A DNA stretch of 64,000 nucleotides, from positions 1,674,001 through 1,738,000 of the forward strand of contig NZ_PGEZ01000001.1 of NCBI RefSeq assembly GCF_002797495.1. The letters are read 5' to 3'. Position numbers and translations under genes: made by a program. Below are positions 36,396-44,646 of the stretch, one piece after another. Numbering within the stretch: the first letter of the stretch is position 1; the number at the start of each line of letters is the position of its first letter. Under the pieces are notes generated by a model. That model saw nothing but the letters and a program-made list of their open reading frames with translations. It was not told the DNA's origin and ran no database searches. This DNA comes from Mumia flava. Lineage in GTDB: Bacteria; Actinomycetota; Actinomycetes; Propionibacteriales; Nocardioidaceae.

Positions 36396-36634
36396 GGAAA
36401 CGGTCCTCGAGTTGCTGGGTGGTGTGTTGCTGGGGTCAGGGGACGCGAAGAGCGCCTCGTCCAGTCTAACGGGCGCCATCTCGCCCCTCGGCTGCTCGTC
36501 CCGGCCGCTGGACGCCGCCTGCGGGAGCAACGACCTGGACGCGCCTGCGGGCCCGGCGCATGCTGAGCAGTGAGGCGCCCGGTCGCGGTGTGCGCCGGCG
36601 ACGCCCAGCATCAGCGCGTCACCAGGAGGTCGCG

Positions 36635-37018
36635 ATGCTCACCAACTCCGTCACCACCCAGATGATCCCGGTCCGCGACGTCGCACGGGCGAAGGACTTC
36701 TACTACCAGGCCCGGCTCGGCCTCGCTCCCTCCGGCGAGACGCCCGACGGCGGGTACGCGTTCGCGACCGCGGGCGGTCACATGATCGCGCTGCTCCCGG
36801 ACGCCGACGGCGCGCCCAGCGGGCGGACCATGCTCAGCTTCGAGGTGCCCGACCTGGAGAAGGAGGTGCAGGACCTGGAGTCGGGCGGCATCGTGTTCGA
36901 GGACTACGACACCCCGGAGATCACGACCACCGGCCACATCGCGCGGCAGGGGAACGAGGCCGCGGCCTGGTTCAAGGACTCCGAGGGCAACGTGCTCTGC
37001 CTGCACTCGGTCGGCTGA
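36635..37018 (+). CDS. VOC (glyoxalase/bleomycin-resistance) superfamily protein
   Basis: 127 aa. Two beta-alpha-beta-beta-beta modules: [28 protein letters not shown] and [30 protein letters not shown], ending [18 protein letters not shown]. Members are lyases, dioxygenases or binding proteins; the metal ligands are not complete enough to assign one. The start is fixed by AGGAGGT 5 bases before the ATG. It faces away from lysC across a 239-base gap in which nothing else was recognised. Confidence 0.85.
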
Positions 37019-37055
37019 GAGTCGGCAGCGGCGCGCGGCGAGACGAGGCGAGTGC

Positions 37056-38507
37056 TCAGCCCTCCGCGCCGGGGACCGGCGGCGGGTCGTACGGCAGCCG
37101 GACCGTGAACCGCGTGTCTCCCGGCTCCGACGTCACCTGCAGGTCGCCGTGGTGCTTGCGGACGACGATCCGCCAGGAGATGTCGAGGCCGAGGCCCGTT
37201 CCCTCACCGACGGCCTTCGTGGTGAAGAACGGCTCGAAGATCCGGTCCCTGATCCCCGGGTCGATCCCCGGGCCGGTGTCGGCGACCTCCACCTCGGCCC
37301 AGTCCTCGACGCGCCGCGTGGTCAGGGTCAGGGTCCCCTGCCCGTGCATCGCCTGGAGGGCGTTCACGATCAGGTTGGTCCACACCTGGTTCATCTCGGC
37401 CGCGTACATCGGCACGGGCGCGATCGACCGGTCGTACGCCTTGACGACCCGGACCTCCCCGGTCTTCTTCTGCAGCATCACCAGCGTCGCGTCGAGCAGC
37501 TCGTGCACATCGGTCGGGGCGAACGGGGCCCGGTCGAGCTGGGAGTACTGCTTGGCGGCGTCGACCAGCGTCGAGACCCGCGCGGTCGCGTCCTCGATCT
37601 CGCTCATCAGCTGCTCGGTCTCGAGGGTGTACGCGAGCCACCGGACCGCACCCGGGACCACGTCCGGCGTCACCTTCTTCGCGACCTTGTCGAGCCACCC
37701 CTCGTCGAGACCGCCTGCGACCAGCAGCGGAGCCACCTCCCAGCCCTGCTCCACCCCGTGGTCGTCGAGCCAGTCCGTCACGCGGTCCTCGAGGTCGGAG
37801 GACTCCAGCACGCCCAGCGCATCCGCCTCGATCGCCTCGGAACGCCGCTTCAGCGCCTCGTCCTGGAGCAGGATCAGCGTGCCCAGCGTCTCCCGGTCGT
37901 ACGGGCCCTCGGCGATCAGCGCCAGCTTGTGCCGCATCGCCGAGACCCGTTCACGCAACGACGCGGTCGCGCGTACGGCCGCGGCCGCCGGGTTGTTCAG
38001 CTCGTGGGTCAGCCCCGCCGACAACGACCCGAGGGCGAGCAGGCGCTCGCGCTGCCCGACCGCGGCCTGGGTGTTGCGCTGCCCGAAGAACAGCCCTTCC
38101 AGCAGGTGCACCGCCATCGGGAACCAGTCGCGCATCAGCGTCGCGAAGTCGTCCGCGGACAGCACGAAGAACCGCGACGGGGTCAGCACCCGGGTCGACC
38201 CGCCGTACGTCTGGGGGACGCGGTCGCCGAGGTAGGCCGACCAGGCGCCGGTGTAGACGCCCGGCTGGTCGGTGCGCGAGACCTCGACGTCGTCGCCGCC
38301 GACCGCGCGGTAGAGGGCGATCTCGCCCTCGAGCAGCACGTAGAAGCAGGTCGCGTCGTCGCCCTCGCGGATCAGCCAGCCGAGGTCCGCGCGCTCCACG
38401 TGCCCGTGCTCGCACAGCCAGACCAGCTGGTCGTCGTCGAGCTTCTCGAACAGGAACATCCGACGCAGCTCGTCGATGTCGCACGGCAGTCGCTCCGGTG
38501 TGCTCAC
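37056..38507 (-). CDS. Histidine kinase with N-terminal cyclic-nucleotide-binding-like domain
   Basis: 483 aa, soluble. Residues 12-135 form a Crp-type cNMP fold (MFLFEKLDDDQLVWLCEHGHVE, FYVLLEGEIALYR); the binding cassette is replaced by TGAWSAYLGDRVPQTYGGSTRV, so ligand binding is doubtful. The phospho-acceptor is His168 in SLSAGLTHELNNPAAA. The HATPase domain has NQVWTNLIVNALQAM, VADTGPGIDPGI and GEGTGLGLDISWRIV. The start has GGGAGGGG upstream. It follows the response regulator-flavoprotein gene by 16 bases, and the two surely work together. Confidence 0.88.
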   Translation of the reverse strand: MSTPERLPCDIDELRRMFLFEKLDDDQLVWLCEHGHVERADLGWLIREGDDATCFYVLLEGEIALYRAVGGDDVEVSRTDQPGVYTGAWSAYLGDRVPQTYGGSTRVLTPSRFFVLSADDFATLMRDWFPMAVHLLEGLFFGQRNTQAAVGQRERLLALGSLSAGLTHELNNPAAAAVRATASLRERVSAMRHKLALIAEGPYDRETLGTLILLQDEALKRRSEAIEADALGVLESSDLEDRVTDWLDDHGVEQGWEVAPLLVAGGLDEGWLDKVAKKVTPDVVPGAVRWLAYTLETEQLMSEIEDATARVSTLVDAAKQYSQLDRAPFAPTDVHELLDATLVMLQKKTGEVRVVKAYDRSIAPVPMYAAEMNQVWTNLIVNALQAMHGQGTLTLTTRRVEDWAEVEVADTGPGIDPGIRDRIFEPFFTTKAVGEGTGLGLDISWRIVVRKHHGDLQVTSEPGDTRFTVRLPYDPPPVPGAEG

Positions 38508-38523
38508 AGCCCCTCCCGTTCCC

Positions 38524-40206
38524 TCACAGACCTTCCAGGTAGCGGTGCACCAGCATCACGGCCATCGCCCCCTCCCCGACGGCAGACGCCACCCGCTTCG
38601 CGGACTCCGCCCTGACGTCACCGGCAGCGAACACCCCGGGAACGCTGCTCTCCAGGTGGAACGGCGCCCGGTCCCGATCCCATCCCGCGGGCCGCCGGCC
38701 GTCGAGCTCCAGGTCCGGTCCGGTCGGCACGAACCCGTACGCGTCACGCTGCACGACCCCGTCGAGCCACTGCGTCCCGGGCACCGCCCCGATGAACACG
38801 AACGCCCACCCGCACGGCGCCGAGCGGGTCTCGCCCGTCTTCGTGTCGCGCAGCACCAGCTCCTCCAGGTGACCGTCCCCGCACGCCTCGGCGACCTCGG
38901 TGGAGGTCAGGACGCGGATCCGCGGGTGGGCCTCGACCTGCTCGATCAGGTACGACGACATCGACTGCGACAGCGACGGCCCCCGGACCAGGATCGTGAC
39001 CCGGCTCGCCTCCCGGGCCAGGGCGATCGCCGCCTGACCCGCGGAGTTCGCTCCCCCCACCACGTAGACGTCCTCGTCCGCGCACGCGTGGACGTTGGTC
39101 AGGGCGGAGCCGTAGTAGAGGCCGCGGCCCGCCAACGCATCGAGGCCCGGTCCGTCGAGGCGGCGGTACGAGACGCCGCCCGCGAGGATCACGGTCTGCG
39201 TGGCGAGGCTCGACCCGTCGGCGAACCGCAACGTCCGCGCCGGCCCGTTCACCTCCAGTCCCACCGCTTCGCGTGCCGTCACCAGCTCCGCGCCGAACCG
39301 CAGCGCCTGCCGGCGGGCGCGGTCCGCGAGCTGGGCGCCGGAGACCCCGTCGGGGAAGCCCAGGTAGTTCTCGATCCTCGAGCTCTGTCCCGCCTGCCCG
39401 CCCGTCGCGGTGCGCTCGACCAGGACCGTACGCAGGCCTTCCGACGCGCCGTACAGTGCGGCGCTCAGCCCCGCCGGCCCACCGCCGACCACGACCAGGT
39501 CGTAGAAGTCCTCGCTCGGACGCGTCACCAGGCCGACCCGCTCGGCGAGCTCGGTGTCGCTCGGCGCCACCAGCACCGTCCCCTCCGGCGACACGACGAC
39601 CGGCAGGTCGTCCCCGGTGGTCTCCGCGGCCGCGAGCAGGCTGCGGCCCTTCTCGGAGTCGGAGGCGAACCAGCGGTACGGCACCTGGTTGCGCGCCAGG
39701 AACTCCCGTACCTCCGACGAGCGGGCCGACCAGCGGTGCCCGATCAGCTTGGTCTCCGCGACCGGGCGCCGGTCGGTCCGCGCCCACGTCGCGAGCTGTT
39801 CGTCGATCACCGGGTAGAGCTTCTCCTCCGGCGGGTCCCACGGCTTGAGCAGGTAGTGGTCCAGATCGACGAGGTTGATCGCGTCGATCGCGACGCTCGT
39901 GTCGGCGTACGCCGTGACGAGCAGGCGCCGCGCCGCCGGGTAGAGGTCCATCGCGGCCTCGAGGAACTCGACCCCCGACATCCGCGGCATCCGTTGGTCG
40001 GCGAGCAGCACCGCCACCTCGTCGCCGCGCAGCCGCAGCTCGCGCAGCGCCTCCAGCGCCTGCTCGCCGGACTCCGCCCGCACGATGCGGTACTCGCTCC
40101 CGTACCGGCGCCGCAGGTCCCGCGCGATCGCGCGGGAGACCGCCGGGTCGTCGTCGACCGTCAGGATGGCCGTACGCGCCCGCCCGCGCCGCTCGGTCGA
40201 CTCCAT
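38524..40206 (-). CDS. Response regulator fused to Grx-like and thioredoxin reductase-like domains, redox Cys absent
   Basis: 560 aa. Receiver: residues 12-130 with VDDD, phospho-acceptor Asp70 (LLADQRMP) and Lys121 (LLKPW). Residues 150-230 resemble a glutaredoxin, but the C-X-X-C position reads RWSARSSEV. Residues 234-560 are a TrxB-like flavoprotein with VVVGGGPAGLSAALY, VYVVGGANSAGQAA and GVFAAGDVR. The TrxB C-A-T-C site is replaced by LYYGSALTNVHA. So FAD and NADPH binding is likely while disulfide reduction is not; the electron acceptor is unknown. ATG 40206 is preferred to GTG 40236 on codon use. Confidence 0.88.
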   Translation of the reverse strand: MESTERRGRARTAILTVDDDPAVSRAIARDLRRRYGSEYRIVRAESGEQALEALRELRLRGDEVAVLLADQRMPRMSGVEFLEAAMDLYPAARRLLVTAYADTSVAIDAINLVDLDHYLLKPWDPPEEKLYPVIDEQLATWARTDRRPVAETKLIGHRWSARSSEVREFLARNQVPYRWFASDSEKGRSLLAAAETTGDDLPVVVSPEGTVLVAPSDTELAERVGLVTRPSEDFYDLVVVGGGPAGLSAALYGASEGLRTVLVERTATGGQAGQSSRIENYLGFPDGVSGAQLADRARRQALRFGAELVTAREAVGLEVNGPARTLRFADGSSLATQTVILAGGVSYRRLDGPGLDALAGRGLYYGSALTNVHACADEDVYVVGGANSAGQAAIALAREASRVTILVRGPSLSQSMSSYLIEQVEAHPRIRVLTSTEVAEACGDGHLEELVLRDTKTGETRSAPCGWAFVFIGAVPGTQWLDGVVQRDAYGFVPTGPDLELDGRRPAGWDRDRAPFHLESSVPGVFAAGDVRAESAKRVASAVGEGAMAVMLVHRYLEGL

Positions 40207-40232
40207 CCGCAAACCCCCTGACCGTGCCGAGG

Positions 40233-42011
40233 TCACTCGGTCCGCTTCGGCCCGACCCGCATCTCGACGTCGATCTGCTCAGCATCCAGCATCGCCAGCG
40301 CCGTCGCCAGGGCCGCCGAGCTGAACATCCCGACCGATCGTGCCGTGAGCAGCGCCTCCCGCTGCGCCTCGATCACCCGCAACCGTAGCTCGCGGTACTG
40401 GGTGACGGTCCGTTTGCGCTCCAGCGCCTCCTGCTCGTCCTCCGCCTGCTCCCGCAGGTACGCCGCCCGCGCGCGCCGTACGACCTCCGCGTCGTACGGG
40501 GTGCCGTCGGGACGCGTGAGTCCGTCGCCGTCCAGGACGCGTTCCGCGGCCCGCGACAGCGCGGCGAACAGCGGCACGAGATCCGGGTCGCTCCCGGTCG
40601 CACGCTCGTCGACGAGCCCGAGCGCCCGGAGCACCCACGGCATGGTCCCGCCCTGCACGAGCAGCGAGACACCCGCGACGACGAAGGCGATCAGGACGAG
40701 CAGCGAGCGCGACGGGGTGTCCGCGGGAAGCGTCTGCACCGCGGCGACGGTCACCACGCCGCGCAGCCCGGCCCACACCAGGACCGCACCCTCGCGCCAC
40801 CCGAGCGGAGCGCCGAGCACGTAGTCGACGTCGGCGAACGCCCGGCGCACCCGCTTGCGGAAGATCGCGTCCCGGCGGGCGGCCCGGTCGGGATCCTCGT
40901 CCGGCGCGCGCCCTCCGGGGCCCCAGCGTCGGCGGCCCGGCGGAACGTCGCCGTGCTCGAGCAGGTCGACCGCGTCGTTCAGCCGCTCGCGGAACCGGGG
41001 TGCACGCTGCTGGCGCCGGCGCGCGGACAGCACGAGCGGGAGCACGTACGCCGCCCGGACGACGAGCAGGAGAGCGACGGCGGCCACGGCGATCCCGACC
41101 CCGCCCCAGACGTTGCCGTGGTTCTCCTCGACGTCGTTCAGCACTCCGTCGAGCTCCAGCCCCACCAGCAGGAACACCCCGCCCTCGAGCAGCAGCTCGA
41201 TCGTGCGCCAGTTCGACTCTTCGTACAGCCGGTCCTGCGGGCGCAGGTACTTCGGGGCGCCCTGGCCGGTGACGAGCCCGGCGACCACCGCGGCGACGAG
41301 GCCGGATGCGCCGACCGCCTCCGCGGGCAGGTACGCGACGAACGGCGCCACGAACGAGATCGCCGTGCTGACCGACGCCTCCGTGACCCGCCGCCGGACC
41401 ATGAGGTTGGCGCGGCCCACGAGCAGCCCGATCACCACGGCAGCGACCACGGCCCAGACGAACTGGCCGAGCACGCCCCACAGCGACACCGTCGTGGCGA
41501 TCGCCGCGACCGCCGACCGCAGCAGCACGAGCGCGGCACCGTCGTTCAGCATGCTCTCGCCCTCGAGGACCGTCAGCACCCGCGGCGCGACGCCGAGGCG
41601 GCGCGCGATGCCGGTCGCGACCGCGTCGGTCGGGCTGACGATCGCGCCGAGCGCGATGCCGGTGGCGAGCTCGACGCCGGGCACGACCGCGCTGAAGAAC
41701 AGTCCGAGCAGGATCGAGCTGAGCAGCACCAGGACGACCGACAGCCCGCTGATGGCGCCGAAGTCGCGCCGGAAGTCCATCGTCGGCACGGACACCGCCG
41801 CCGAGTACAGCAGCGGAGGCAGGACCACCGCGAGGATCAGCTCCGGGTCGACCTCGATCGGCGGTACGGAGGGGATCACGCTGATCCCGACCCCGAGGAG
41901 CACCAGCAGCAGCGGGGCCGCGACCCCGATCCGCGGCGCCACCAGCGACACCACGACGACGCAGAGCACCGCGCCGACGCCGATGAGCAGGTTCACGAGG
42001 AGGTCGTCCAC
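40233..42011 (-). CDS. CPA1-family Na+(K+)/H+ antiporter
   Basis: 592 aa. Twelve or so membrane helices; the ion-binding ND-type region is IVSPTDAVATGIARRLGV and LEGESMLNDGAALVLL, with WAGLRGVVTVAAVQTLP further on. An additional cytosolic loop (about 325-400, RRRWGPGGRAPDEDP) and a long helical C-terminal tail (about 470-592) are probably regulatory. It exports Na+ or K+ for protons. It ends 26 bases before the response regulator-flavoprotein gene, suggesting one operon. Confidence 0.92.
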   Translation of the reverse strand: MDDLLVNLLIGVGAVLCVVVVSLVAPRIGVAAPLLLVLLGVGISVIPSVPPIEVDPELILAVVLPPLLYSAAVSVPTMDFRRDFGAISGLSVVLVLLSSILLGLFFSAVVPGVELATGIALGAIVSPTDAVATGIARRLGVAPRVLTVLEGESMLNDGAALVLLRSAVAAIATTVSLWGVLGQFVWAVVAAVVIGLLVGRANLMVRRRVTEASVSTAISFVAPFVAYLPAEAVGASGLVAAVVAGLVTGQGAPKYLRPQDRLYEESNWRTIELLLEGGVFLLVGLELDGVLNDVEENHGNVWGGVGIAVAAVALLLVVRAAYVLPLVLSARRRQQRAPRFRERLNDAVDLLEHGDVPPGRRRWGPGGRAPDEDPDRAARRDAIFRKRVRRAFADVDYVLGAPLGWREGAVLVWAGLRGVVTVAAVQTLPADTPSRSLLVLIAFVVAGVSLLVQGGTMPWVLRALGLVDERATGSDPDLVPLFAALSRAAERVLDGDGLTRPDGTPYDAEVVRRARAAYLREQAEDEQEALERKRTVTQYRELRLRVIEAQREALLTARSVGMFSSAALATALAMLDAEQIDVEMRVGPKRTE

Positions 42012-42059
42012 CCTCGGGCTCCCTCCGGCCGCTCGTCTGCTCCGGTGTCGCGGCCCGCG

Positions 42060-44126
42060 TCAGGCGAGCCGTTCCGCGAGGAAACGGTACGCGAGGGCGG
42101 CCATGTGCGCCGCCTGTGCGTTGTTCGCGGCGCCGCCGTGACCGCCCTCGATGTTCTCGTAGTACGTGACGTCCTTGCCCGCCGCGAGCATCCGCGCCGC
42201 CATCTTGCGCGCGTGGCCGGGGTGGACCCGGTCGTCGCGCGTCGATGTGGTGAACAGCACCGGCGGGTACGGGCGCGACGCGTCGAACAGGTGGTACGGC
42301 GAGATCGTCGCCAGGAAGTCCCGGTCGGCCGACTCCGGATCCCCGTACTCCGCCACCCAGGACGCGCCCGCGAGCAGCAGGTGGTAGCGCTGCATGTCGA
42401 GCAGCGGCACCTGGATCACGATCGCGCCGAACAGGTCGGGGAACTGCGTGAGCATGTTGCCGGCCAGCAGCCCGCCGTTCGAGCCGCCCATCGCCCCGAG
42501 GTGCGCGGGCGACGTGATCCGCCGGTCCGCGAGGTCGCGAGCCACGGCCGCGAAGTCCTCGTACGCCCGGATCCTGTGCTCCCGCAGGGCCGCCTGGTGC
42601 CAGCCCGGCCCGTACTCGCCGCCGCCGCGGATGTTCGCGACCACGTACACCCCGCCGCGGGTGAGCCACGCCCGCCCCATCCCACCGGAGTACGCGGGGG
42701 TCAGCGAGATCTCGAACCCGCCGTACCCGTACAGCAGCGTCGGCGCCGTCCCGTCGAACGCGAGGTCCGCCGGCCGTACGACGAAGTACGGCACCCGGGT
42801 CCCGTCGGCCGACGTGGCGAAGTGCTGCTCGGTGACGAGCCCGGCCGCATCGAAGAACGTCGGCATCGCCTTGAGCGGCTCCGGGTCGGCGTTGAGCCCG
42901 CGCGGCCCGAGGTCGACCAGCGAGAGCGTCGTCGGCGTGAGGTAGTCGGTGGTGTACATCCAGACCGAGTCGGACGCGTCGGCGTCGACCGGGGCGACCT
43001 GGATCGTGCCGAGCTCCGGCGCCCCGTGCATCGCGACCCGGTCCCACTCGCCGCCGGGCGTCGCGGGCGGCGTCAGGATCTCCAGCCTGCTGCGGACGTC
43101 GGTCATCACGTCGAGCACGAGCCGGTGCGCGGTGAACGCGTACCCGGCGAGCGCGCTGGACGGCGTCGGCTCGAACAGCACCGTGAAGTCGCGTGCGCCG
43201 TCGAGGAACGCGGAGAAGCCGATCGCCAGGAGGGCGCCGGCCGGGTACGTGGTGCCGTCGACGGTCCAGTCGTCGCGCAGCTCGACGAGCATCTGGTCGC
43301 GCTTGACGCTGGTCTCCGCCGAGTCGGGGACGTCGAGCTTCGTGAGCGCGACGCCGTCCGCGCCGTCTCCCTCGGCCTCCGTCAGCAGGTAGCGCTCCGA
43401 GGTGTAGAACGACGTCGCCCGCACCACCCAGTCGCGCTCGAACCCCGGCGTACGGTCGTGGAACGCACCCACGGACAGGTCTTCGTACGCCCCCTCGAAG
43501 ACGACCTCCGCGTCCTCCAGGGTCTCGCCGCGACGCCACCGCCGAGCGATCCGGGGATAGCCGGACTCCGTGGTCGAGCGCTCACCGGTCTCGGTGGCGA
43601 CGAAGACGGTGTCCGCGTCGATCCAGCTCACGTCGCCCTTGGCCTCCGGGCGGACGAAGCCGTCCTCGAGGAACGTGCGGGTGGTCAGGTCGAACTCGCG
43701 CGTCACGTCCGCGTCGGAGCCGCCGCGCGACAGCGACACCAGGGCGCGGGTGAACGCGAGCGGGCCCGTGCGGAGGATCTTCGCGCCGTGCCAGACCCAG
43801 TTCTCGTCCTCGGCCTCGGCGAGCGCGTCGACGTCGAGGATGACGTCCCAGTCCGGTTCGTCGGTGCGGTACGAGTCGAGCGTCGTCCGGCGCCAGAGCC
43901 CACGGACGTGAGTCGCGTCGCGCCAGACGTTGTAGAACCAGTCGCCGGCCTTCGCGATCGGCGGGATCTTCGCGTCGGAGTCGAGCACCTCGCGGATCAG
44001 CCGCTCGGTCTCGGCGAAGTCCTCGCCCGCCGCCAGCGTCTCCGCGGTCACCGCGTTGCGCTCACGCACCCAGTCCAGCGCCTCGTCACCGAGCACGTCC
44101 TCCAGCCACAGGTTCTCGTCGCCCAT
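42060..44126 (-). CDS. S9 family prolyl oligopeptidase
   Basis: 688 aa. An N-terminal beta-propeller (about 70-400) is followed by an alpha/beta hydrolase with LYGYGGFEISLTPAYS, the nucleophile Ser in MGGSNGGLLAG, Asp in TSTRDDRVHPGHA and His in IEGGHGGAANN. It cleaves short peptides after proline, probably in the cytosol as no signal peptide is present. ATG 44126 follows the -10 TACTCT by 7 bases. Upstream readings would translate the 22-bp repeat and are rejected. It is 48 bases upstream of the antiporter gene. Confidence 0.93.
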   Translation of the reverse strand: MGDENLWLEDVLGDEALDWVRERNAVTAETLAAGEDFAETERLIREVLDSDAKIPPIAKAGDWFYNVWRDATHVRGLWRRTTLDSYRTDEPDWDVILDVDALAEAEDENWVWHGAKILRTGPLAFTRALVSLSRGGSDADVTREFDLTTRTFLEDGFVRPEAKGDVSWIDADTVFVATETGERSTTESGYPRIARRWRRGETLEDAEVVFEGAYEDLSVGAFHDRTPGFERDWVVRATSFYTSERYLLTEAEGDGADGVALTKLDVPDSAETSVKRDQMLVELRDDWTVDGTTYPAGALLAIGFSAFLDGARDFTVLFEPTPSSALAGYAFTAHRLVLDVMTDVRSRLEILTPPATPGGEWDRVAMHGAPELGTIQVAPVDADASDSVWMYTTDYLTPTTLSLVDLGPRGLNADPEPLKAMPTFFDAAGLVTEQHFATSADGTRVPYFVVRPADLAFDGTAPTLLYGYGGFEISLTPAYSGGMGRAWLTRGGVYVVANIRGGGEYGPGWHQAALREHRIRAYEDFAAVARDLADRRITSPAHLGAMGGSNGGLLAGNMLTQFPDLFGAIVIQVPLLDMQRYHLLLAGASWVAEYGDPESADRDFLATISPYHLFDASRPYPPVLFTTSTRDDRVHPGHARKMAARMLAAGKDVTYYENIEGGHGGAANNAQAAHMAALAYRFLAERLA

Positions 44127-44133
44127 GCGGTCG

Positions 44134-44139
44134 AGAGTA
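44134..44139 (-). promoter_or_regulatory. -10 element TACTCT, leaderless start
   Basis: On the minus strand TACTCT is followed by 7 bases and the ATG at 44126. Confidence 0.45.
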
Positions 44140-44158
44140 GGGCGGACCTCGTACGGCT

Positions 44159-44322
44159 GGTCGAGGCGGGCGCCCCCGATGGTCGAGGCGTGCGCCCCCG
44201 ATGGTCGAGGCGGGCGCCCCCGATGGTCGAGGCGTGCGCCCCCGATGGTCGAGGCGGGTGAGGGACGAGCCCGATCGAGACCCCCGCCCTCGATCACTCG
44301 CTGCGCTCGCGCCTCGAGCAAC
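44159..44322. repeat. TCGA-family element with 22-bp tandem array
   Basis: Four 22-bp units (GGTCGAGGCGKGCGCCCCCGAT) begin at 44159, 44181, 44203 and 44225, the fifth (44247) passing into GATCGAGACCC. A second copy in the other orientation follows at 44289-44320 (CTCGATCACTCGCTGCGCTC and GCGCCTCGAGC). It fills most of the 319-base gap between the divergent peptidase and symporter genes; the rest holds the symporter promoter and operator. Confidence 0.85.
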
Positions 44323-44364
44323 GGCCTCATGCGGCGGACGAGCGGCCCGGCCGAGGACTCCCCC

Positions 44365-44393
44365 TTGCTGTGATCGGGGTCTCACGCTAGGTT
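44365..44393 (+). promoter_or_regulatory. Promoter of the symporter operon
   Basis: TTGCTG (44365-44370), 17 bases, TAGGTT (44388-44393). Transcription would begin near 44400, giving a leader of about 45 bases that starts with the palindrome at 44402. Confidence 0.6.
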
Positions 44394-44401
44394 GCTGCGC
44401 A

Positions 44402-44423
44402 TTGACGTTGACGTCAACGCCAA
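44402..44423. promoter_or_regulatory. Palindromic operator at the symporter promoter
   Basis: Core CGTTGACGTCAACG (44406-44419) is a perfect 14-bp palindrome; with outer TTG and CAA, 10 of 11 pairs match. It lies at the expected transcription start, a repressor position. Its half-site CGTTGAC recurs in the operator at 51307. Confidence 0.7.
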
Positions 44424-44445
44424 CCGATGACCGAGAGGACACCTC

Positions 44446-44646
44446 ATGCAGCCCACGCGCCTGCCGCGCGCGGACGTCGCGATCCTGGTCGGGATCGCCG
44501 TCTACGCGCTGATCACGTTCCTGCCGTGGAGCCACGAGCGCACCGTCGCCGGCGTCAGCGTCTTCGCCTGGATGCTGTACGCGCTGATGGTGATGGCGCC
44601 GCTCGCCGGCCTGGCCGCCGCGCTCCGCGAGAACGAGGAGGAGTGA
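44446..44646 (+). CDS. Small two-helix membrane protein paired with symporter
   Basis: 66 aa. Two membrane helices (about 9-27 and 38-60) around FLPWSHERTVAGVSVFAWM, then LRENEEE. Small proteins of this kind (DUF3311/YhdT-like) sit directly upstream of sodium:solute symporters and are probably accessory subunits. GAGAGGA lies before the ATG. It ends one base before the symporter GTG, and its tail codons form that gene's ribosome site. Confidence 0.8.
   Translation: MQPTRLPRADVAILVGIAVYALITFLPWSHERTVAGVSVFAWMLYALMVMAPLAGLAAALRENEEE

Follow-up and report, generated by a model that had tools for sequence, protein, structure and literature searches.

What does a two-component system do when its response regulator ends in an enzyme that resembles thioredoxin reductase (TrxR; TrxB in bacteria) and has lost the cysteines of that enzyme? 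The question is raised by a gene pair of Mumia flava, in the 64,000-nucleotide stretch of contig NZ_PGEZ01000001.1 (positions 1,674,001 to 1,738,000) that we analysed whole and call the window. Specifically, a receiver is fused through a glutaredoxin-like domain to a TrxR-like flavoprotein, and the gene of a soluble histidine kinase follows. Our results point to a phosphorylation-gated flavin/NAD oxidoreductase module, not a thioredoxin reductase, as the most likely reading of these sequences, with a probability of about 0.6. If the pairing of kinase and receiver is right, this would be a two-component system with a flavin redox output instead of transcription, and with the zinc finger zf-UBP as an unexplained partner. 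The open reading frame (ORF) list and Pfam confirmed the three minus-strand genes (CPA1-type antiporter, receiver-flavoprotein and soluble kinase) as a first-pass annotation had described them; its coordinates, its domain order and its report that the Cys are replaced in both domains of the flavoprotein were all borne out, and its interpretation is partly supported. The features of the flavoprotein, in window coordinates, are these:

38524 to 40206, minus strand: receiver / glutaredoxin-like / TrxR-like flavoprotein, 560 amino acids, with an ATG start at 40206 and an alternative GTG at 40236.
39829 to 40167, minus strand: receiver (REC) domain (Pfam PF00072 Response_reg, 53.8 bits).
39997 to 39999, minus strand: predicted phospho-accepting Asp70 of the receiver, with D18, D19, D70, T98 and K121 intact.
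39511 to 39771, minus strand: predicted glutaredoxin-fold linker domain, with S160xxS163 replacing CxxC (AlphaFold2 (AF2) model, pLDDT 83.8).
38569 to 39504, minus strand: TrxR-like FAD/NAD(P) domain pair without CxxC (Pfam PF07992 Pyr_redox_2, 105.4 bits).
39082 to 39123, minus strand: lost-CxxC site GLYYGSALTNVHAC, with the invariant Tyr365 and the conserved Cys375 (39082-39084), from the alignment.

The loss of cysteines extends well beyond this protein. We aligned 128 family members, drawn from the relatives of the genome, from named loci (the best 80 of at least 588) and from plasmid records, after dropping 16 duplicates or fragments, together with two thioredoxin reductase controls (L012, from the same genome, and one more), both of which display their Cys pair in the alignment. 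At the CATC of L012, the two Cys are replaced in the window protein by G366 and T370, and none of the 128 members has Cys at either TrxR active-site position; homologues keeping CxxC, the outcome that the first-pass annotation had named as contrary to its claim, did not appear. In the glutaredoxin-like domain, Cys occurs at position 160 in 0/128 and at position 163 in 6/128, so the CxxC or CxxS pattern by which a glutaredoxin is recognised is missing; Ser stands at both positions in 94/128, and the domain is wholly Cys-free in 88/128. Judged from this alignment, the missing CxxC is a family trait and not a peculiarity of the window. Around the lost TrxR site, Tyr365 is invariant across the 128 members, and position 371, which follows the second Cys and is an aspartate in TrxR, is Glu in 106/128 and Asn in the window protein and four genus relatives. 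Nine more members, from a phylum-wide sample, have also lost both TrxR Cys and kept Tyr365. The claim of two erased redox centres is right as regards the two CxxC sites and needs amending for a further Cys close to the former active site: C375, which aligns five residues past the second TrxR Cys position, is Cys in 119/128 members (110/112 of those with intact REC residues) and in 4/9 of the further members. Some family members carry thioredoxin-reductase names, yet 0/128 have the thiols for that reaction (the Streptomyces protein SCO7298, discussed below, lies outside these 128).

What has been kept is the flavoprotein scaffold. The window protein retains its FAD motifs, and conservation of FAD and core motifs across the family is very strong. 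The HRRxxFR stretch, a motif that binds the 2'-phosphate of NADPH, reads VRGPSLSQ, and NADPH as cofactor, which the first-pass annotation had assumed, is therefore unproven; the separate thioredoxin reductase of the same genome, L012, carries HRRDELR along with its CATC. Scored against TIGR01292 (thioredoxin reductase, NCBIfam), the window protein reaches 199.6 bits, below the cut-off of 343.45. In an AF2 model of the whole protein (45 sequences, mean pLDDT 80.3, pTM 0.65), the TrxR part is closest to Lactococcus thioredoxin reductase in its FR form (5mh4; Z 33.7, root-mean-square deviation (rmsd) 2.1 over 301 residues, TM(target) 0.92), while the FO form (5mjk) fits poorly (rmsd 7.4, TM 0.62). 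By this comparison with 5mh4, the two-domain FAD/NAD(P) fold of TrxB is present, and the model adopts the FR arrangement, in which the nucleotide meets the flavin. The comparison of the whole model with the PDB weighed mostly the TrxR part, and the glutaredoxin-like domain was hence folded and searched alone. Its best PDB match is the thioredoxin-like BC3987 (3zit_B; Z 12.1, rmsd 1.8, 76 residues), with cGrx1 (7c12_A) at Z 11.1 and rmsd 1.6 over 72 residues; overall, the range Z 10-12 is taken up by thioredoxin-like, glutaredoxin and NrdH-redoxin structures, and GST and Spx folds come next, at 9-10. The best E in Foldseek was 2.0e-3, with all matches above 0.001. By sequence, the domain has no Pfam match, and its profile finds a weak glutaredoxin match only (Mrx1, E 0.15) among PDB sequences. 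The linker domain is thus predicted by modelling to have a glutaredoxin fold.

The other half of the pair is the kinase, whose features are as follows:

37056 to 38507, minus strand: soluble histidine kinase, 483 amino acids, predicted to be cognate from its pairing with the receiver across relatives (ORF, Pfam).
38130 to 38375, minus strand: cyclic-nucleotide-binding (cNMP)-like sensor domain, with no canonical phosphate-binding cassette (PF00027, 30.3 bits; cut-off 27.5).
38004 to 38006, minus strand: predicted phospho-accepting His168.
37086 to 37394, minus strand: HATPase_c domain (85.3 bits).

A kinase homologue lies behind the receiver gene in 80/80 named loci, at no more than 160 bases in 79 and at 1.3 kb in one. 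These 80 loci are the closest relatives, and the pairing was therefore re-counted on all 136 other aligned members: a kinase lies within 3.5 kb in 119/119 members whose REC residues are intact, and in 0/17 of those whose REC is degenerate, replaced or absent. The REC residues listed above are intact in the window protein and in 112/128 members overall. By this genomic pairing, the kinase is the predicted partner of the receiver-flavoprotein, and this context (119/119 versus 0/17) gives good support to the earlier proposal that phosphorylation gates the enzyme. A Pfam search of the receiver protein at E <= 0.1 turned up no DNA-binding domain, which agrees with the view that the system has no such output.

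His168 is His in all 115 aligned kinases, the window kinase included (13/127 matches were set aside as partial or duplicate). With this H-box His and its ATPase boxes, the window kinase has the parts expected of a two-component kinase. The Pfam HisKA model gives the window kinase 13.2 bits, below its cut-off of 26.9, possibly because of some 100 residues that, by eye, appear to be inserted between the two helices of the dimerisation domain. The first-pass annotation had described a Crp-like sensor without a normal cNMP cassette; the cassette is indeed gone, and the cNMP-like domain nevertheless passes its Pfam cut-off. The cassette binds phosphate and follows the pattern GE..L...R.A, which in its strict form occurs in 1/125 kinases (L188); a looser pattern is seen in L146, and L190 and L196 are near-canonical by eye. 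Should the ancestral signal have been a cyclic nucleotide, the site for it is no longer visible in nearly all of the kinases sampled. A special kinship of the cNMP-like domain of the kinase with fusions of cNMP-like and TrxR-like domains was considered and is unsupported, in that the kinase profile gives eight such fusions a median of 45.8 bits versus 31.8-61.5 for four Crp-type domains of the window genome; the exception is a Deinococcus kinase (L146, the first of two), which scores 91.4 bits with the fusion profile. Kinases of this type may also stand in tandem behind one receiver-flavoprotein, two in L107 and L112 and three in L192.

A third part recurs beside the pair. A zf-UBP gene lies by it in 36/80 named loci, directly behind the kinase in 35 of these, so that the first-pass annotation, which rightly joined kinase and receiver-flavoprotein, missed a recurrent partner. 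In one genome (G154, L188:2277-4034), a zf-UBP forms the C-terminus of a cNMP-histidine-kinase that lies directly behind a receiver-TrxR gene and keeps the canonical cNMP cassette. On plasmids, zf-UBP adjoins cNMP-TrxR fusions in Streptomyces and Rhizobium and a sensorless TrxR-like gene in Paraburkholderia, and the Streptomyces and Paraburkholderia sites also adjoin chaperone genes. A tie of zf-UBP and TrxR-like genes to protein quality control is possible. Specifically, dnaK-grpE-clpB-trxA precede the zf-UBP and cNMP-TrxR genes on a Streptomyces angustmyceticus plasmid (L149:1-7296), and in L148 the neighbors of zf-UBP and a TrxR-like gene include Clp and Hsp20 genes.

In the phosphorylation-gated oxidoreductase that we favor, the kinase, with its cassette-less cNMP-like sensor, would autophosphorylate on His168, and the phosphate would pass to receiver Asp70. 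The receiver would then alter the state of the TrxR-like FAD/NAD domain pair via the redox-dead glutaredoxin-fold linker. The domain pair would accept hydride from a reduced pyridine nucleotide, and the flavin would hand electrons straight to an acceptor or bound partner, not via a disulfide to thioredoxin; the small zf-UBP protein, encoded elsewhere in this genome, may be a frequent partner. In favor of this scheme are the family-wide absence of the TrxR cysteines beside an invariant Tyr365, the retained FAD motifs, the FR arrangement of the model, the separate thioredoxin reductase L012 in the same genome, the pairing of kinases with intact receivers, the occurrence of the enzyme part with a cNMP-like domain instead of REC, and the recurrence of zf-UBP by the pair, in a kinase fusion and in the genome-level counts given below.

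Several points weigh against this scheme. With the NADPH motif lost, nucleotide binding is uncertain, and the domain pair may be a pseudo-enzyme. The FR arrangement comes from a single static AF2 model, built on 45 sequences, which leaves room for domain rotation. As to the partner, no zf-UBP was found by the pair in 44/80 named loci (some of which end on short contigs), and none lies beside the window flavoprotein, the only zf-UBP match of the window genome being about 434 kb from the pair (26-30 kb in four genus relatives). Both counts that associate zf-UBP with the family, namely any zf-UBP in 39/42 genomes with a family member versus 8/16 without among 58 related genomes, and in 22/34 versus 10/115 among 149 genomes across the phylum, take no account of shared ancestry. 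The sharper count for short-frame zf-UBP in the 58 genomes (30/42 versus 0/16) uses a limit (<500 codons) that was set after the frames had been viewed, and of the 74 zf-UBP places in these genomes, only 11 have a family member within 5 kb.

A reversed flow of signal is the first alternative to consider, although we regard it as unlikely: the flavin/NAD domain would be a redox-sensing input that sets receiver phosphorylation or binding, and the output would be protein contact, for example with zf-UBP, not catalysis. Such a sensor would fit the absence of any remaining CxxC chemistry, the recurrence of zf-UBP partners, and an enzyme part that is interchangeable on REC, cNMP-like or degenerate REC modules. 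However, in all 119 cases the intact receiver is accompanied by a kinase whose type includes a sensor domain, and this suggests that the input is at the kinase; the very strong conservation of FAD and core motifs also speaks against a sensor. The least probable of the readings weighed here is a single-cysteine flavoenzyme, in which C375 would substitute for CxxC and, jointly with the flavin, handle a sulfenate, a persulfide or a mixed disulfide. Its appeal lies in the conservation of C375 given above and in SCO7298 of Streptomyces coelicolor, a TrxB-output regulator by listing, which, as named trxB3 in an excerpt of one report, is up after reactive sulfane sulfur, also without AdpA (PMC9952706). 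Yet C375 is missing in 9/128 members and in 5/9 of the further members, and it aligns five residues beyond the second TrxR Cys position.

Two further alternatives give a role to the antiporter gene upstream of the flavoprotein:

40233 to 42011, minus strand: CPA1-type cation/proton antiporter, genus-level neighbor (PF00999 Na_H_Exchanger, 166.7 bits).

In the first, antiporter, flavoprotein and kinase, with zf-UBP, would act jointly on pH or Na+, which we find doubtful and rank just above the single-cysteine enzyme. The antiporter stop lies 26 bases before the flavoprotein ATG at 40206, as the first-pass annotation had it for this start, which is preceded by a better-looking AGGGGG ribosome site, judged by eye; the stop is overlapped by the in-frame GTG (40236), whose site looks weaker. 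Orthologues of the antiporter (63-65% identity) occur in 4/5 other genus genomes, and it stands directly upstream of the flavoprotein in 3/4 of those that have a flavoprotein orthologue (G001, G002, G005). In keeping with a joint system, an excerpt of an acid-shock study reports SCO7298 up after acid shock (PMC2631018). Against it, a CPA1 homologue (E <= 1e-10) was found in the flanks of 0/80 named loci (with the full 10 kb upstream in 65 and <2 kb in 3), NhaA in 1/80, and an Mrp-type antiporter subunit in 6/80, all Rhodococcus or Nocardia. Within the genus, G004 has the kinase-flavoprotein pair and no antiporter, while G003 keeps the antiporter intact and has the pair deleted to a scar (L187:7456-7794) that joins part of the receiver to the kinase tail; the two are therefore separable both ways. 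The CPA1 antiporter as a fixed part of the system, which the first-pass annotation had proposed, is rejected on its neighborhoods, and by the condition that the annotation had itself set, unrelated neighbors in other genomes; as far as sampled, it appears to be mostly a genus-level neighbor. It scores 231.7 bits against TIGR00831 (a_cpa1), below the cut-off of 279.6, and passes only the broader PF00999.

Antiporters do recur around zf-UBP itself. In the 58 related genomes, 30/74 zf-UBP places lie in frames of at least 550 codons, and 13 of the 15 fetched are CPA1 antiporters with a C-terminal zf-UBP (L155-L164, L166, L197, L198); a large frame is an imperfect proxy for fusion, given that L165 and L199 have no CPA1 part and that the long frame of L189 differs from the kinase frame. 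An NhaA gene (PF06965, 453.8 bits) precedes the lone zf-UBP gene of the window genome (L123:4948-7492), the same neighborhood is seen in the three genus relatives fetched (L167, L168, L169), and in Streptomyces violaceoruber (L066, 4663-6352) an NhaA gene comes after receiver, kinase and zf-UBP. Since Na+/H+ antiporters of other kinds recur around zf-UBP, an antiporter link is possible in general, and it is denied for the window CPA1 as a fixed part. KefF, a flavoprotein, gates the K+/H+ antiporter KefC, and by analogy the module might be a phosphorylation-controlled flavoprotein switch for Na+/H+-type antiporters. The zf-UBP would serve it for docking: some genomes have it fused to CPA1 antiporters and one has it fused to the kinase, it sits beside NhaA in the genus and L066, and in many others it is free-standing behind the kinase; in the genus, CPA1 itself would have joined the operon. 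We hold such a switch to be improbable as well, a step above the joint pH or Na+ system and below the reversed flow of signal. As a further point against the joint pH or Na+ system, the window antiporter has no zf-UBP, and none is matched at the place of any of the five relatives nearest to it outside the genus.

The window pair is a member of a catalogued, uncharacterised class of TrxB-output two-component systems. The family, of which we found members in 34/149 genomes sampled across the phylum (E <= 1e-60; window genome counted), also occurs in cyanobacteria, Deinococcus and proteobacteria. Within the window genome, one paralogue (L125:7941-9659; C1:2329967-2331643) has a degenerate receiver and no kinase nearby, and a second (L124) retains an intact receiver along with a kinase of its own. 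In excerpts of published surveys, a TrxB-output class is listed among response regulators, with SCO7298 and its kinase SCO7297 (PMC9739842), in a thermophilic cyanobacterium (PMC9953108) and among archaeal metagenome examples (PMC5847659); judged by that listing, not by the SCO7298 sequence, SCO7297/SCO7298 are the same kind of pair as in the window. The S. violaceoruber locus carries the pair and zf-UBP, its protein being 68% identical to that of the window. Relative to TrxB-output regulators, the window copy is set apart by the CPA1 antiporter upstream, by zf-UBP lying elsewhere and by Asn for the usual Glu371. No paper on the function of a fused receiver-TrxR protein was found in the open-licence literature.

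Among better-known enzymes, bacterial TrxB shares its fold and FAD motifs with the window protein, while CxxC and HRRxxFR are missing from the latter. The TrxR-type ferredoxin/flavodoxin-NADP reductase of Bacillus cereus (8c16, 8c3m) also matches the TrxR-like fold (Z 26-27). This enzyme passes electrons on without CxxC and is not known to contain a receiver or a glutaredoxin-like part; thioredoxin reductases score above it in comparison with the window sequence. Closer in architecture are the TrxR-like parts that carry a cNMP-like domain in place of REC. These cNMP-glutaredoxin-like-TrxR fusions, named “cyclic nucleotide-binding domain-containing thioredoxin-disulfide reductase”, have the same CxxC-free enzyme part and an adjacent zf-UBP in 4/5 loci viewed with flanks (L141, L142, L149 and L150, not L152), and they differ from the window pair in that the sensor is fused directly, with no kinase of this type nearby. 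Burroughs, Iyer and Aravind are said to have proposed, in Mol. BioSyst. in 2011, a bacterial zf-UBP redox signalling system that depends on cyclic nucleotides. The likeness lies in neighborhoods that bring together zf-UBP, cNMP-like domains and a TrxR-like oxidoreductase. The difference is that, in the two-component branch, nearly every sampled kinase has lost the cNMP cassette, and zf-UBP beside a TrxR-like gene, a trait of that reported system, is absent at the window locus and present in 36/80 related loci.

A promoter scan of 36600-44600 found no promoter and a single terminator-like site that was no better than chance. Farther along, a 22-base tandem repeat of 4.6 copies (44158-44258) falls within the first part of a prolyl-oligopeptidase frame, or before the point where that frame truly starts, and a frame preceding the L125 paralogue contains an amino-acid repeat of similar appearance.

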